Source: an uncultured Bacteroidales bacterium
GTDB lineage: Bacteria > Bacteroidota > Bacteroidia > Bacteroidales > Muribaculaceae
Length of the DNA stretch: 64,000 nt
Direction: 5' to 3'
Assembly (NCBI GenBank): GCA_947175245.1
Contig: CAMWLW010000003.1
Location: 1-64,000, forward strand
In this document: piece after piece, positions 3,310 to 18,222 of the stretch
Position numbering within the stretch: position 1 is the first letter of the stretch
How the letters are laid out: the number at the start of each line of letters is the position of its first letter
Translations under genes and position numbers: made by a program
The notes under the pieces: generated by a model
Databases searched by the model: none
Seen by the model: the letters and a program-made list of their open reading frames with translations, nothing else
Told to the model about the DNA's origin: nothing

Positions 3310-3523
3310 GGTATACGTAACTTGGTTTTGGAATACAAATTTAATAAAAAATCGGTATCGCGGCAAAAAATGTGTGGGTTGTGGGAATTTTGCAGGCGGT
3401 TTTTACGGGTGGGGCGTGACGGAGTGAATTTTGGGCGATTTTAGTGGGTTGAGGGTGAGGTGGTTGGCGAAAGGGGGTGAAATTTTGTTGCCGAAAAATT
3501 TTTATTCGGGTATCGGGCGATTA

Positions 3524-3531
3524 TAACTTTG
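3524..3531 (+). promoter_or_regulatory. Promoter -7 element of the capsid cassette
   Basis: TAACTTTG matches the Bacteroidetes -7 consensus TAnnTTTG. No good TTTG is seen about 20 bases upstream. Transcription would begin near 3535, which argues that the small protein starts at 3582 and not at upstream in-frame ATGs. The 3310-3523 stretch before it holds nothing else I recognise. Confidence 0.55.
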
Positions 3532-3581
3532 CAATGTCGAATGACAATGACGTCACTAAGTTTAATCTAATCATATTGCCT

Positions 3582-3821
3582 ATGGAACAAACACAAGAAA
3601 TCAACACTCAAACTGAACAGACTGAACCGAAAATCGTGCAGGGCTCTCACGAGCCTGACACTCAGATGCCTGACATTGACAGGCTCATTGCCGAGGCTGA
3701 GGAGCGCGGCTATCGTCGCGGCCGTGAGGAGGCCGGGCAGGTGGAACCGGCTGAACAGGAGCCGGCAGACGAACCCGAGATACTGATTCTGGCGCATCGG
3801 CGTCGCAGTATTTGGGACTGA
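3582..3821 (+). CDS. Small acidic coiled protein heading the capsid cassette
   Basis: A 79-residue protein of unknown function, starting at ATG 3582 (MEQTQEINTQ). This start sits about 47 bases after the predicted transcription start, while longer in-frame starts lie at or upstream of the promoter. It is rich in Gln, Glu and Pro, with one short amphipathic segment (DIDRLIAEAEERGYRRGREEA) and a basic tail ending RRRSIWD. Placed immediately before a major capsid protein, a small acidic helical protein could be a scaffold or capsid-binding peptide, but nothing in the sequence proves that. The 68-base gap to the capsid gene and the shared strand suggest one transcript. Confidence 0.6.
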   Translation: MEQTQEINTQTEQTEPKIVQGSHEPDTQMPDIDRLIAEAEERGYRRGREEAGQVEPAEQEPADEPEILILAHRRRSIWD

Positions 3822-3889
3822 AACAAATCTTGCCTTAAATGACCATGAAAAACACAATCAATCTATTAATCAATTAAATTACATTATCT

Positions 3890-5086
3890 ATGAAAAACAT
3901 TGTAACTACCGATGTGGTAAACCAGGCTGCGCCCGAGCTGCTGCGCAGTGAGATTGACAGCCGAATTGTTAAAATCCGCCCGATGGCAACGCCTATCGAC
4001 CAGATTTCGCGTCACGCCAACACGCGCCGTGCGGGCAGTATGGTGGTTGAGTATTATGCTGTCGACAGCAAGCCTTTTGTGGCTACGCTGCGGGCCGACA
4101 TCGTGGGCAAGACCGAGACTGACCTCAATAAAAAGGTCAAGATGGCGCTGTCGGTCGAAGACACGAAGATGTTTGCTGTCAGTGAGACTGTCCTGCTGGC
4201 CAATGTTGTCAATAGTGCGGGCCGTCCCGTGACGGGTTACATCTCGGAAAAGACCGAGACGATGCTCAAGGGCTATTTCACGTGTACCGACAAGAACGGA
4301 TTCTCATCGATTCCTGAGATCAGCAAGGGTACCAAAATTGTGCGCATGGGTCGCGCGGCCGGTGAGCTCGACATCCAGACCGAACAGTTCCAGGCGCTGC
4401 CGCGCAAGGACAGTAACTTTTGCCAGATTTTCAAGACTCAGATCGAGCAGAGTACCCTGGTGACGCTGTCAAACAAGGAGGTGGGGTGGACTTTGAGCGA
4501 CCAGGAGGAGGCTGCGATCATTGACATGAGGCAGTGTATGGAGCGCAATTTCATGTTCGGCAACAAGTTGCGCCTTGACTTTGACGACGAGGATACGGTG
4601 ATGCTCACGGGCGGTATATGGAATCAGGCCGGTAAGGAGATGTCGTATATGATGGGTGAGCTTACTGACGAGAAGATGGTGTCGATATGCCGCGAGGCGT
4701 TCACGGGCTCGAACGGGTCGTCGCGCAAGCTGCTGATAGGCGGCAGCGGGTTTATCGAGGCGATGCACGGGCTGGGCGCGGCACGCACGCTGTCGGCGGC
4801 CGACAAGATGACGCGCTGGGGCCTTGATTTCACGACCTACGTCTCGAAATTCGGCACGCTCTACGTGCTTCTGAGCGAGACTTTCGACCAGTGTGGCCAC
4901 GCTAATGACGCCATGATTATCGACCCTGAGTATCTGACCAAGTACAGTCACATACCGTTCAAGACCGAGAAGCTGAACCTGCGAGCCGGCGGTGTACGCA
5001 ACACCGATGCCATAGTCATCACCGAGGCGTCGTGTCTGGTTCTGCGCTATCCCGATGCTCACATGCGTATCATCGCTAGCGAGTGA
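3890..5086 (+). CDS. Major capsid protein, SU10/DUF5309-like
   Basis: A 398-residue protein with the hallmarks of the HK97-fold major capsid proteins grouped as SU10-like/DUF5309: an N-terminal segment with PMATPIDQISRHANTRRAG, a central SNFCQIFKTQIEQSTLVTLS block, then a helix containing EEAAIIDMRQCMERNFMFGNK (spine-helix-like) and a Gly-rich segment with RKLLIGGSGFIEAM. Size is normal for such proteins. The start ATG at 3890 is the only good one. It is followed five bases later by a connector-sized gene and then a portal-like gene, so the call rests on both sequence and order. No signal peptide. What is odd is the setting: no terminase, protease or tail genes nearby, and ordinary host genes on both sides. 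Confidence 0.78.
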   Translation: MKNIVTTDVVNQAAPELLRSEIDSRIVKIRPMATPIDQISRHANTRRAGSMVVEYYAVDSKPFVATLRADIVGKTETDLNKKVKMALSVEDTKMFAVSETVLLANVVNSAGRPVTGYISEKTETMLKGYFTCTDKNGFSSIPEISKGTKIVRMGRAAGELDIQTEQFQALPRKDSNFCQIFKTQIEQSTLVTLSNKEVGWTLSDQEEAAIIDMRQCMERNFMFGNKLRLDFDDEDTVMLTGGIWNQAGKEMSYMMGELTDEKMVSICREAFTGSNGSSRKLLIGGSGFIEAMHGLGAARTLSAADKMTRWGLDFTTYVSKFGTLYVLLSETFDQCGHANDAMIIDPEYLTKYSHIPFKTEKLNLRAGGVRNTDAIVITEASCLVLRYPDAHMRIIASE

Positions 5087-5090
5087 CGTC

Positions 5091-5624
5091 ATGGAGTACA
5101 CGCTTAATGAACTGATAGCTGAGTGGAAGATGCGCAAGGGTCTCGTACCCTTGCGTGTCGACGCTGCGGTCACGCGCCATGACGCGTTTGAGATTGACGA
5201 GTACGCGGCGCGGGTCATAAGGGAGTGGTATGAGGAGCTGCTCGACACGGCCGATGTGTCGCTGCTAGATGTCGAGGATATCACCGAGCGTGTAGACATC
5301 GAGGATTTCAGCGACGGTGTGGCTGTGATGAGGCTTCCCGACGGTTGCCGCCGGCTGGTGGAGGTGACGATGGAGCAGTGGCGCTGCCCGGCAACGATTG
5401 TCACCGACCCTGACTCGGAGCTCGCGCTGAGACAGCGCTCGGTGTTCGGGCGCGGGGGCGCATGCTGTCCGGTTGCTGTCACCGAGGGGGCGGGCAGGGT
5501 GAGGCTGTACAGTTTCAGGGGTGCCGTGACGCCGTCGCCGGTGAGGGTGCTGGGTGTCATGAGTCAGCCCGAGGGGGTGATACGCTGCTCGCCGAGGGCG
5601 CTGTCGTTGCTGTTCAATTCTTAA
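5091..5624 (+). CDS. Connector/adaptor-sized protein of the capsid cassette
   Basis: A 177-residue protein starting at ATG 5091, four bases after the capsid stop codon. It begins MEYTLNELIAEWKMRKG and contains a helical N-terminal half (AARVIREWYEELLDTADV, where phage head-completion proteins also carry helices) and a beta-rich second half with DGVAVMRLPDGCRRLVEVTMEQW and SPVRVLGVMSQPEG. I cannot match it to a named family. Its size and its place between capsid and portal genes fit a head-to-tail connector or ring protein. Tight spacing on both sides (4 and 13 bases) shows it is part of the same operon. Function is inferred from position only. Confidence 0.6.
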   Translation: MEYTLNELIAEWKMRKGLVPLRVDAAVTRHDAFEIDEYAARVIREWYEELLDTADVSLLDVEDITERVDIEDFSDGVAVMRLPDGCRRLVEVTMEQWRCPATIVTDPDSELALRQRSVFGRGGACCPVAVTEGAGRVRLYSFRGAVTPSPVRVLGVMSQPEGVIRCSPRALSLLFNS

Positions 5625-5637
5625 ATACTGATTTACT

Positions 5638-6951
5638 ATGGAAAATGCAAAAGATATTCTTGACGCCGCCTGCAGGGCATGGTCGGGGTGGGCCTCGGTC
5701 AGGACACGGCGTGACAAGTACAAACGGTTTACGTATGGCGACCAGTGGAGCTACATGGTGAGTGACGGTGACCGTTACATGACGGCGGCCGAGCGTGCCG
5801 TGGCTCACGGCCGACGCCCGATGACCAACAATATGCTGAGGCGGCTTGTCAAGTCGGTCATAGGACGTTACCGCTACCGGCGTCAGGACGGCGAACAGCT
5901 CACGGGCGAGGCTGCCCGGGTGTACGCGTTCAACAATCTTGACGAGATTGACTGCCGGTCGCTCGAGGAGTTCCTGATATCGGGGTGTACGATCCAGAGG
6001 GTGATACGCGAGCGCCGGCTGATGGGTCACGAACTGTGGGTCGACATGGTGTGCCCCGACCGATTCTTTGTCAACCCTATACGTGACCCGCGGGGATGGG
6101 ATGCCGAGCTGGTGGGGATGCTTCATGACTGGAGCCTGACTGAGACGGTGATACGCCTCGCCGGCGATGACCCCGGGCGCGCTGCCGCCATAAGGCAGAT
6201 ATATGGCAGCATGTGCAGCAACCCTGTGTTGGGCGACTGGTGTGCGGGGTCAGACCATATTGACTCGTTCCTGTCGGCGCCGCCGGGCCGCTGCCGTGTA
6301 ATCGAGGTGTGGACGCTCGAGGCTGTAACCCGCAGGCGTCCCAGGCGCAAGACGGCCGGCGCCGGCGCCACGGCCTGTGACGTGTCGACCATGTGGCGCT
6401 GCCGGTGGCTCGCTCCCGACGGCACGGTGCTGGCCTCGCACGTGTCGCGGTCGCCCGACGGGATGCACCCGTTCAAGTTCCGTTTCTACCCTATGATCGA
6501 CGGTGAGGTTCACTCGCTGGTGGAGGATGTCATAGACCAGCAGATTTACATCAATGAGCTCATATCGCTCATTGACCACGTGGTGAGCTGCGCGGCCAAG
6601 GGTGTGCTGGTCTTTCCGGTCGAGGAGATGGCGCCGGGCATGACGCTCGAGAAGGTGACGGAGAAATGGAGCTCGCCCGATGCCGTCATTCCGATTAGAC
6701 GCGGCATCTCAAAGCCCGAGCAGATTACCGCGTCGGGCGGCTCTCTCGCGGCTAAGGAACTGCTGGAGATTCAGATGCAGATGTTTGAGGATGTGTCGGG
6801 CGTGACAAATGTGCTGATGGGGCGCACGGCGTCGGGCCGTATAGGCGTCGAGCAGTATGAGAGCCAGGTGCGCAACGCTCTCATTGCCATCGCCGACATT
6901 CTCGACACGTTCGGCAACTTCATCGCGGCGCGCAACAGTGCGCTGGTGTAA
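5638..6951 (+). CDS. Portal-like protein of the capsid cassette
   Basis: A 437-residue protein resembling phage portal proteins of the P22-like type. An early segment YKRFTYGDQW (residues 29-37, compare the conserved G-x-Q-W start of such portals) is followed by MTNNMLRRLVKSVIGRYRYR, then SLEEFLISGCTIQRV, a VWTLEAVTRRR wing region, DQQIYINELISLIDHVVSCAAKG (long stem helix) and SGVTNVLMGRTASGRIGVEQYESQVRNAL (crown-side helix with the typical loop). It is shorter than the P22 portal (over 700 residues) but long enough for the conserved core. It ends at a strong terminator. The portal call is moderately firm; whether it still assembles is unknown. It is the last gene of the four-gene cassette. 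Confidence 0.68.
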   Translation: MENAKDILDAACRAWSGWASVRTRRDKYKRFTYGDQWSYMVSDGDRYMTAAERAVAHGRRPMTNNMLRRLVKSVIGRYRYRRQDGEQLTGEAARVYAFNNLDEIDCRSLEEFLISGCTIQRVIRERRLMGHELWVDMVCPDRFFVNPIRDPRGWDAELVGMLHDWSLTETVIRLAGDDPGRAAAIRQIYGSMCSNPVLGDWCAGSDHIDSFLSAPPGRCRVIEVWTLEAVTRRRPRRKTAGAGATACDVSTMWRCRWLAPDGTVLASHVSRSPDGMHPFKFRFYPMIDGEVHSLVEDVIDQQIYINELISLIDHVVSCAAKGVLVFPVEEMAPGMTLEKVTEKWSSPDAVIPIRRGISKPEQITASGGSLAAKELLEIQMQMFEDVSGVTNVLMGRTASGRIGVEQYESQVRNALIAIADILDTFGNFIAARNSALV

Positions 6952-6958
6952 AACGAAG

Positions 6959-7000
6959 AGGAGGGTTGTACCATACTTGACGGTACAACCCTCCTTGCTT
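6959..7000 (+). terminator. Terminator closing the capsid cassette
   Basis: Perfect 14-bp stem (6959-6972 with 6982-6995, AGGAGGGTTGTACC) and 9-base loop, followed by TGCTT. It lies between two convergent genes and can serve both strands. Confidence 0.8.
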
Positions 7001-17436: not shown

Positions 17437-18222
17437 ATGGATGTAAGAACTCAGGAGCTGACGCGGTATATTGTACCGATGAGAGAGGGTGGCTCGCTGC
17501 CGGTGCTTGGCGAAGCTGACGATGGTTTCAAATATGTGGTGAAGCTGCGCGGCGCGGGGCATGGCAAGAAGGCGCTGATAGCCGAGTTTTTGGGCAGTAT
17601 GATTGCCAAGGCGTTCAAGTTTAATGTGCCCGAGACGGTGCTGCTCAATCTGCCGGGAGTGTTCGGTATCACTGAGCCTGACCAGGAGGTGCAGGAGCTG
17701 ATGCGTAACTCTGAGGGGCTGAATGTTGGGTTGCATTATCTGGCCGGTGCGGCGACGTTTGACCCGGCGGTCAACACGGTCGACCCGCTGACGGCGTCAA
17801 AGATTGTGTGGCTGGATGCTTTCCTGACCAACGTTGACCGTACGCGTCTCAATCCCAATATGATGATATGGAACAATGAGCTGTGGCTGATTGACAACGG
17901 GGCGTCGTTCTATTTCCACCACGCGTGGCGCGACCCGGCCAAGGCGGCTCTTGACCCGTTTCCGTACATAAAGAATCATGTTTTCCTTGGGCAGGCCGCC
18001 CGGCTGGAGGAGGCTGACCGGCTGATGCGCCAGGCAATCACGCCACGCACGCTGTCTAAGATTGTGGGTCAGATACCTGATGAGTGGCTCGATGAGGAGA
18101 ACTCGGACGTAACGCCCGGTGAGCGCCGCCGGGGCTATGAGACATTCCTGCTCGACAGGTTGAAAAACAGCCGTATATTTGTCGACGAGGCTATAAAACA
18201 GCAAAAATTATCGGGATTATGA
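17437..18222 (+). CDS. HipA-family kinase (single-domain form)
   Basis: A 261-residue protein of the HipA-like kinase family, lacking the N-terminal HipA domain of the classical persistence toxin. Visible kinase elements are the ATP-lid-like KYVVKLRGAGHGKKALIAEFLG (residues 32-53), the catalytic loop TNVDRTRLNPNMM (Asp134, Asn139) and the metal-binding LIDNGASF (Asp153). The following gene overlaps by four bases (ATGA) and encodes a DUF3037 protein, a partnership seen repeatedly in bacteria and thought to be toxin-antitoxin-like. It has a good promoter 16 bases upstream. The substrate is unknown; classical HipA phosphorylates glutamyl-tRNA synthetase, but that cannot be assumed here. Confidence 0.82.
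   Translation: MDVRTQELTRYIVPMREGGSLPVLGEADDGFKYVVKLRGAGHGKKALIAEFLGSMIAKAFKFNVPETVLLNLPGVFGITEPDQEVQELMRNSEGLNVGLHYLAGAATFDPAVNTVDPLTASKIVWLDAFLTNVDRTRLNPNMMIWNNELWLIDNGASFYFHHAWRDPAKAALDPFPYIKNHVFLGQAARLEEADRLMRQAITPRTLSKIVGQIPDEWLDEENSDVTPGERRRGYETFLLDRLKNSRIFVDEAIKQQKLSGL

Follow-up and report, generated by a model that had tools for sequence, protein, structure and literature searches.

Gene transfer agents (GTAs) of the RcGTA type, found in Alphaproteobacteria, are inherited vertically, retain a terminase and have genes distributed over several loci (summarised in PMC12946183). The podovirus-like FpGTA of the gut anaerobe Faecalibacterium, carried by all Faecalibacterium genomes examined, has portal, capsid, scaffold, large terminase (TerL) and candidate TerS genes in a 10.5-kb operon, with a second operon ~125 kb away that encodes a baseplate, fibre, receptor-binding protein, holin and endolysin; electron microscopy (EM), proteomics and DNA evidence have demonstrated its particles and their packaged DNA (PMC12946183). 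The defective prophage PBSX of Bacillus subtilis packages random host DNA and has a bacteriocin-like role (PMC7667829). Here we describe a four-gene phage head cassette (locus A) near the start of contig CAMWLW010000003.1 from an uncultured Muribaculaceae bacterium (assembly GCA_947175245.1), of which we analysed the first 64,000 nucleotides (the window). We conclude, with a probability of roughly three in four, that it is the head locus in a phage-derived system of eight genes at three loci, domesticated long ago, and that this system constitutes a podovirus-like GTA. With somewhat less assurance, we favour the view that this GTA is a working one, domesticated independently and inherited since the common ancestor of Muribaculaceae and six other Bacteroidales families.

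FpGTA is the closest known system in kind. The Muribaculaceae system differs from it in belonging to another phylum, in being known from genes alone and in its spread over at least seven families; judged from the different phyla rather than by a homology comparison, the two are evidently separate domestications. Like RcGTA-type agents, the Muribaculaceae set is vertically inherited, retains its terminase and occupies several loci. Unlike those siphovirus-like agents with their long-tail gene set, it combines an SU10-type capsid with a short-tail nozzle, and a tail tube and tape measure were not found in it. PBSX genes are kept in one cluster, whereas the Muribaculaceae set is dispersed.

A head cassette among host genes

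The original prediction, made from the DNA letters and their reading frames, described four intact, tightly spaced genes, and all four frames are open on the forward strand. They encode an acidic 79-aa scaffold remnant (3582-3821), a 398-aa SU10-type major capsid protein (MCP; 3890-5086), a 177-aa portal ring/adaptor, or head-to-tail ring (5091-5624), and a 437-aa P22-type portal (5638-6951). The proposed SU10-like capsid and portal-like protein are both borne out by database matches. The MCP matches Pfam SU10_MCP (E 1.6e-47), phrog_26635 (E 2e-73) and the major capsid of PDB entry 9in6 (E 4e-7); the portal matches Pfam P22_portal (E 1e-14) and phrog_156 (E 5e-31) and shares 32% identity with the portal of Bacteroides phage BS-TP4.

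Neither the first nor the third gene product had a match in searches of the Pfam and PHROG libraries. An iterated profile assigns the first to the gp10 family of BS-TP4, a phage gene in the scaffold position (E 9e-6). Its product measures 263 aa in BS-TP4, 251-331 aa in families f22, f28, f60, f67 and f105 and 65-160 aa in family f1 (G, L and f label genomes, loci and families). From the position we infer a scaffold role, and we regard the 79-aa protein as a shortened remnant of the phage gene. The third gene is homologous to BS-TP4 gp13 by iterated profiles. A Foldseek search with its AlphaFold2 model (pLDDT 89) returned the tail-barrel ring of crAss001 (7qoj, E 1.4e-4) and the SU10 virion (7z4b, E 5e-3); by this predicted structure, the protein is a podovirus-type ring/adaptor.

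The cassette also has the promoter element and 14-bp terminator that had been proposed for it. On the same strand, at 3522-3532, lies the −7 promoter box TATAACTTTGC, which follows the Bacteroidota consensus, occurs once in the 64 kb and appeared in none of 100 shuffles. Downstream, a perfect hairpin (6959-6995, assigned to neither strand), with arms AGGAGGGTTGTACC (6959-6972) and GGTACAACCCTCCT (6982-6995) paired at 14 of 14 positions, is a probable bidirectional terminator between convergent genes. The cassette is flanked by host genes, as anticipated: one neighbour encodes a GH43 glycosidase, the other a large secreted protein that has Cleaved_Adhesin and CARDB domains. Genes for a terminase, tail, integrase or lysis function do not adjoin the cassette within the window, which contains no tRNA genes. 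A HipA_2-type kinase gene (17437-18222; Pfam E 2e-16) lies elsewhere in the window amid host genes.

Packaging and tail genes at two other loci

The original prediction held that terminase, tail, integrase and lysis genes were absent and that the cassette stood alone. The absence holds beside the cassette; the isolation does not, because two further loci of this genome (G000) encode a terminase, a tail nozzle and a TerS candidate. With the TerL of a relative (P0005 of G028) as query, we found a single TerL, at C6:21568-23373, right behind a homolog of BS-TP4 gp26. The two genes make up locus B (contig C6, 19046-23454), in which an 823-aa nozzle directly precedes the 646-aa TerL. A search with the gp9 family identified C109:7256-7639 (minus strand), behind which a 154-aa companion is encoded; this companion and a 135-aa TerS candidate form locus C (C109:6744-7648, also on the minus strand). 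Read from their translations, the neighbour of locus B resembles the ribosomal protein S20 gene and those of locus C resemble the L21/L27, SpeA and TruA genes, and these neighbours look like host genes. An upstream comparison revealed TAnnTTTGC-type promoter boxes before loci B and C too, consistent with separately transcribed units. This general Bacteroidota −7 box is the only regulatory word common to the regions upstream of the three loci, and no shared operator was seen there.

TerL matches PHROG terminases (E 5e-20). Its ATPase residues K130, R132, G135, S137 and T138 (Walker A) and E238, together with the nuclease residues D444, D453, E503, D603 and D604, are invariant in all 45 domesticated copies examined, a conservation of every catalytic residue that would fit a functional packaging motor. 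The structure model of the gp26 homolog (pLDDT 88) has the SU10 tail as its best PDB match (7z47_G, E 1e-12) and also matches tail proteins of crAss001, P22 (gp10), Sf6 and Kp7. The first ten matches are all phage tail proteins, although the TM-scores, at 0.2-0.35, are modest and beta-propeller proteins occur further down the list; on the strength of the model, the protein is a short-tail nozzle.

Pfam had no match for TerL, the nozzle, the TerS candidate or the companion, PHROGs named just TerL and, weakly, nozzle relatives, and a PDB sequence profile search with the nozzle, adaptor, TerS and companion families gave nothing meaningful. The companion family (A5; for example, L074:8137-8622 and L193:6744-7208) comprises very divergent proteins of ~155 aa encoded behind the TerS candidate, with no database match. 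We considered it as the phage gp12 and as a TerS-family member and rejected both, as comparisons show it to be unrelated. The full set thus comprises a head, portal, adaptor, short tail and packaging motor.

Inheritance and selection in Bacteroidales

Of 89 host-family genomes, 79 have a single MCP copy whose frame is intact (46-78% identity); 81 have a match, those of G036 and G073 being phage-like and outside the count of 79. In a tally of the first 59 host-family genomes, about 48 carry the domesticated-type MCP, portal and TerL together. Six more families of this order (f22, f28, f60, f67, f86 and f105) have MCP homologs, which are missing from most other sampled families. A scan of named GTDB genomes yielded 337 relatives, and of the 337 stretches we kept 80 loci for comparison, most of them titled Muribaculaceae or Bacteroidales. 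Two metagenome-assembled genome (MAG) records titled 'Clostridiales' and 'Pseudoflavonifractor' (L255 and L275) carry Muribaculaceae-type loci, and their titles look wrong.

The MCP and TerL trees both follow host genera. Genus labels need 29 changes on the MCP tree (minimum 28, shuffled mean 54) and 26 on the TerL tree (minimum 26, shuffled 41), and phage copies, some from the same genomes as domesticated ones, fall outside the domesticated part of each. Both genes have been inherited vertically with the host lineage. The dN/dS ratios (NG86) are 0.05-0.26 for the MCP and 0.09-0.23 for TerL, approximate values with several dS near saturation, and by these estimates both genes are under purifying selection. 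Apparent stops in the TerL of G019, G031 and G042 sit upstream of the start.

Gene order in relatives and phages

The complete run of nozzle, TerL, scaffold, MCP, adaptor, portal, TerS candidate and companion occupies ~10.5 kb in L074, L296 and L301. In the 80 loci, the genes form a contiguous part of this eight-gene order or a rearrangement of it at one joint, and the joint at which the run is broken varies between lineages. In two cultured Muribaculaceae, Isolate-002 and Isolate-013 (NCI), the locus (L263/L264) carries scaffold, MCP, adaptor, portal, TerS candidate and companion. The original prediction would have been abandoned had the cassette always adjoined terminase or tail genes in relatives. 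It does so in a minority, 5 of the 80 loci (L292, L294, L296, L301 and L313), and there the compact locus is a bare particle-and-packaging operon with no prophage around it.

In G000 the three loci lie on three contigs and do not form a single contiguous phage genome. Longer assemblies separate them within one contig: loci A, C and B lie at 55, 247 and 706 kb of a 1.24-Mb contig in G004, and the MCP and TerL at 182 and 2,731 kb of a 3.31-Mb contig in G062. With distances of 0.2-2.5 Mb inside single contigs, the dispersal is genuine rather than an artefact of assembly. G315 and G343, each assembled as one contig, have 32-33 kb between the MCP and TerL. The sets of G109, G115, G147, G315, G343 and G397, from other families, have a full-length scaffold gene and most also have gp12; they represent earlier stages of domestication. 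Possible tail fibres, with no Pfam match, are encoded beside the adaptor or capsid by a 1,260-aa gene of G115 (L072:4963-8745, f28) and a 302-aa gene of G109 (L069:8122-9030, f22).

The closest annotated phages are the Bacteroides phages BS-TP4 (PQ571277), BKO1-TP3 (PQ571269) and BF1-TP2 (PQ571263), with genomes of 64-68 kb and identities to the cassette of 35-36% for the MCP and 31-32% for the portal. In BS-TP4, the order is gp1 to gp3 (giant), portal, TerL with gp8 and gp9 on the other strand, gp10, capsid, gp12, gp13, gp14 (giant) and, later, gp26. Iterated profiles run against the neighbourhoods of cassette-carrying relatives recovered homologs of TerL (gp7), gp9, gp10, gp13 and gp26. The phages differ from the domesticated set in order, with the portal upstream of the capsid and TerL reversed between them, and in having the giant virion proteins gp3 and gp14, gp1, gp12, an endolysin and replication genes, which the domesticated set does not have. 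G000 yielded no match to the giant protein gp14, and the f1 domesticated sets none to gp1, which is confined to true phages and other families. Profile searches with BS-TP4 proteins found no gp12, endolysin or replication genes in the neighbourhoods of relatives and no homologs of the giant proteins in the neighbourhoods examined. Contigs in IMG/VR encode no relative in a scan with the MCP, which reaches close relatives only.

Three observations concern these phages themselves. Two giant ORFs of BS-TP4 (PQ571277.1 1511-17686 and 26961-34898; L083 and L082), of ~5,391 and 2,645 aa and unannotated function, flank the head module. The GenBank record names gp7 (L082:12341-14437) a 'tail spike protein', and by homology it is the large terminase. 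In G062, a gene closely like gp1 (C1, ~1335800; L350:9737-10228) probably belongs to a true prophage that shares the genome with the domesticated set.

Discussion

Strong selection in many species, an intact motor and the absence of a phage genome together form the signature that a GTA leaves in sequence. A cellular genome carries head, tail and terminase genes of phage origin, with vertical inheritance, intact frames and purifying selection; no autonomous replication or integration genes linked to the cluster were recognised, a genome-wide integrase search not having been made. The SU10-type capsid, P22-type portal, ring adaptor and nozzle are those of short-tailed phages of the SU10, crAss and P22 types. 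The domesticated or GTA-like shell raised in the original prediction is supported.

In such a GTA, the capsid would assemble on the portal, and TerL, an ATPase-nuclease, would load pieces of the host chromosome into the heads, there being no phage genome. The adaptor and nozzle would close a short podovirus-like tail. A subset of cells would make these short-tailed particles and release them by lysis of that subset, and the particles may deliver DNA to kin. Assembly, host-DNA packaging, release, delivery and benefit are all predictions from the gene set.

Several points weigh against this reading. A lysis gene, receptor-binding protein and tail fibre were not identified in the window's own genome, and particles and packaged DNA are predicted from genes alone. 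The TerS candidate owes its identity to homology with phage gp9, which lies near TerL, and to its size and position; neither a database nor a structure match backs the label. With one genome per genus, MCP and TerL distances are not significantly correlated (Mantel r 0.12; r 0.93 within the genus), probably because of saturation or uneven rates. The portal frame of G057 is split in two (C11:224172-225445) and no TerL was found there, which probably marks a lineage where the system decays. TerL was also not found in G012. G003, of the same genus and 99% complete, has the nozzle, TerL and TerS candidate (C9 and C18) and no MCP or portal match, which may reflect loss or an assembly gap. MAG contigs make up the bulk of the data, and the absences in G003, G012 and G057 are either real losses or gaps.

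The strongest competitor, which we nonetheless consider unlikely, is a domesticated PBSX-type particle that packages DNA or kills without gene transfer, serving as a weapon or decoy against competitors or phages. Such a particle would need identical gene content, delivery is unproven while no receptor-binding protein has been found, and PBSX packages random ~13-kb pieces of host DNA without transfer (PMC7667829). However, particles with a bacteriocin role normally need a receptor-binding protein that has diversified, and the cassette has no such gene linked to it. The conserved nuclease and ATPase sites of TerL indicate that DNA loading is the trait under selection.

We judge it improbable that the capsid now serves as a compartment for proteins or nutrients or has another DNA-free function. 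Shells of the phage-capsid fold have been reused as compartments elsewhere, as in encapsulins, but a compartment has no need of a portal, adaptor, nozzle or active terminase. An encapsulin-type system would consist of a capsid without portal or terminase; here portal, adaptor, nozzle and TerL are all conserved alongside it.

Still less probable is a phage satellite or helper, or a phage that is still mobile and has the rest of its genes at other places in the genome. The packaging set is complete and its closest relatives are Bacteroides phages, but integrase, replication, giant virion protein and lysis genes are unrecognised beside any locus, and the single copy, vertical inheritance and division over three loci, with no close relative in IMG/VR contigs, speak against mobility. 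A PICI-like element would have an integrase, hijacking genes and a patchy distribution, whereas these genes are family-wide, single copy and host-congruent. The capsid-hijacking satellite part entertained in the original prediction thus finds no support.

Scattered fragments of a decaying or defective prophage would account for the losses, the one split portal frame in the few affected genomes and the shortened scaffold gene, but are the least credible explanation, given frames that stay intact across dozens of species with divergence down to ~50% identity, dN/dS clearly below 1, host-congruent trees, invariant TerL catalytic residues and TerL 'stops' that precede the start, all in keeping with the earlier argument from intact frames.

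The open literature, a scope that excludes most subscription papers and all bioRxiv preprints, contained no report that we could find of a GTA in Muribaculaceae or any Bacteroidota; within the literature searched, this would be the first GTA found for Bacteroidota. The series from phage to compact operon to split loci is a natural record of a phage taken apart into host genes. In the mouse gut, Muribaculaceae are a dominant family. Coverage classed as 'generalized transduction or GTA' has been reported for 46 contigs in mouse-gut virus fractions, where about one quarter of patterns were unexplained and Bacteroidetes accounted for about half of the contigs showing transduction patterns (83) (PMC7667829). 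If our reading is correct, the system would be a candidate source for those 46 contigs and for some of the unexplained patterns, and a major gut lineage would routinely package, and perhaps exchange, its chromosomal DNA by a hidden, family-wide route.

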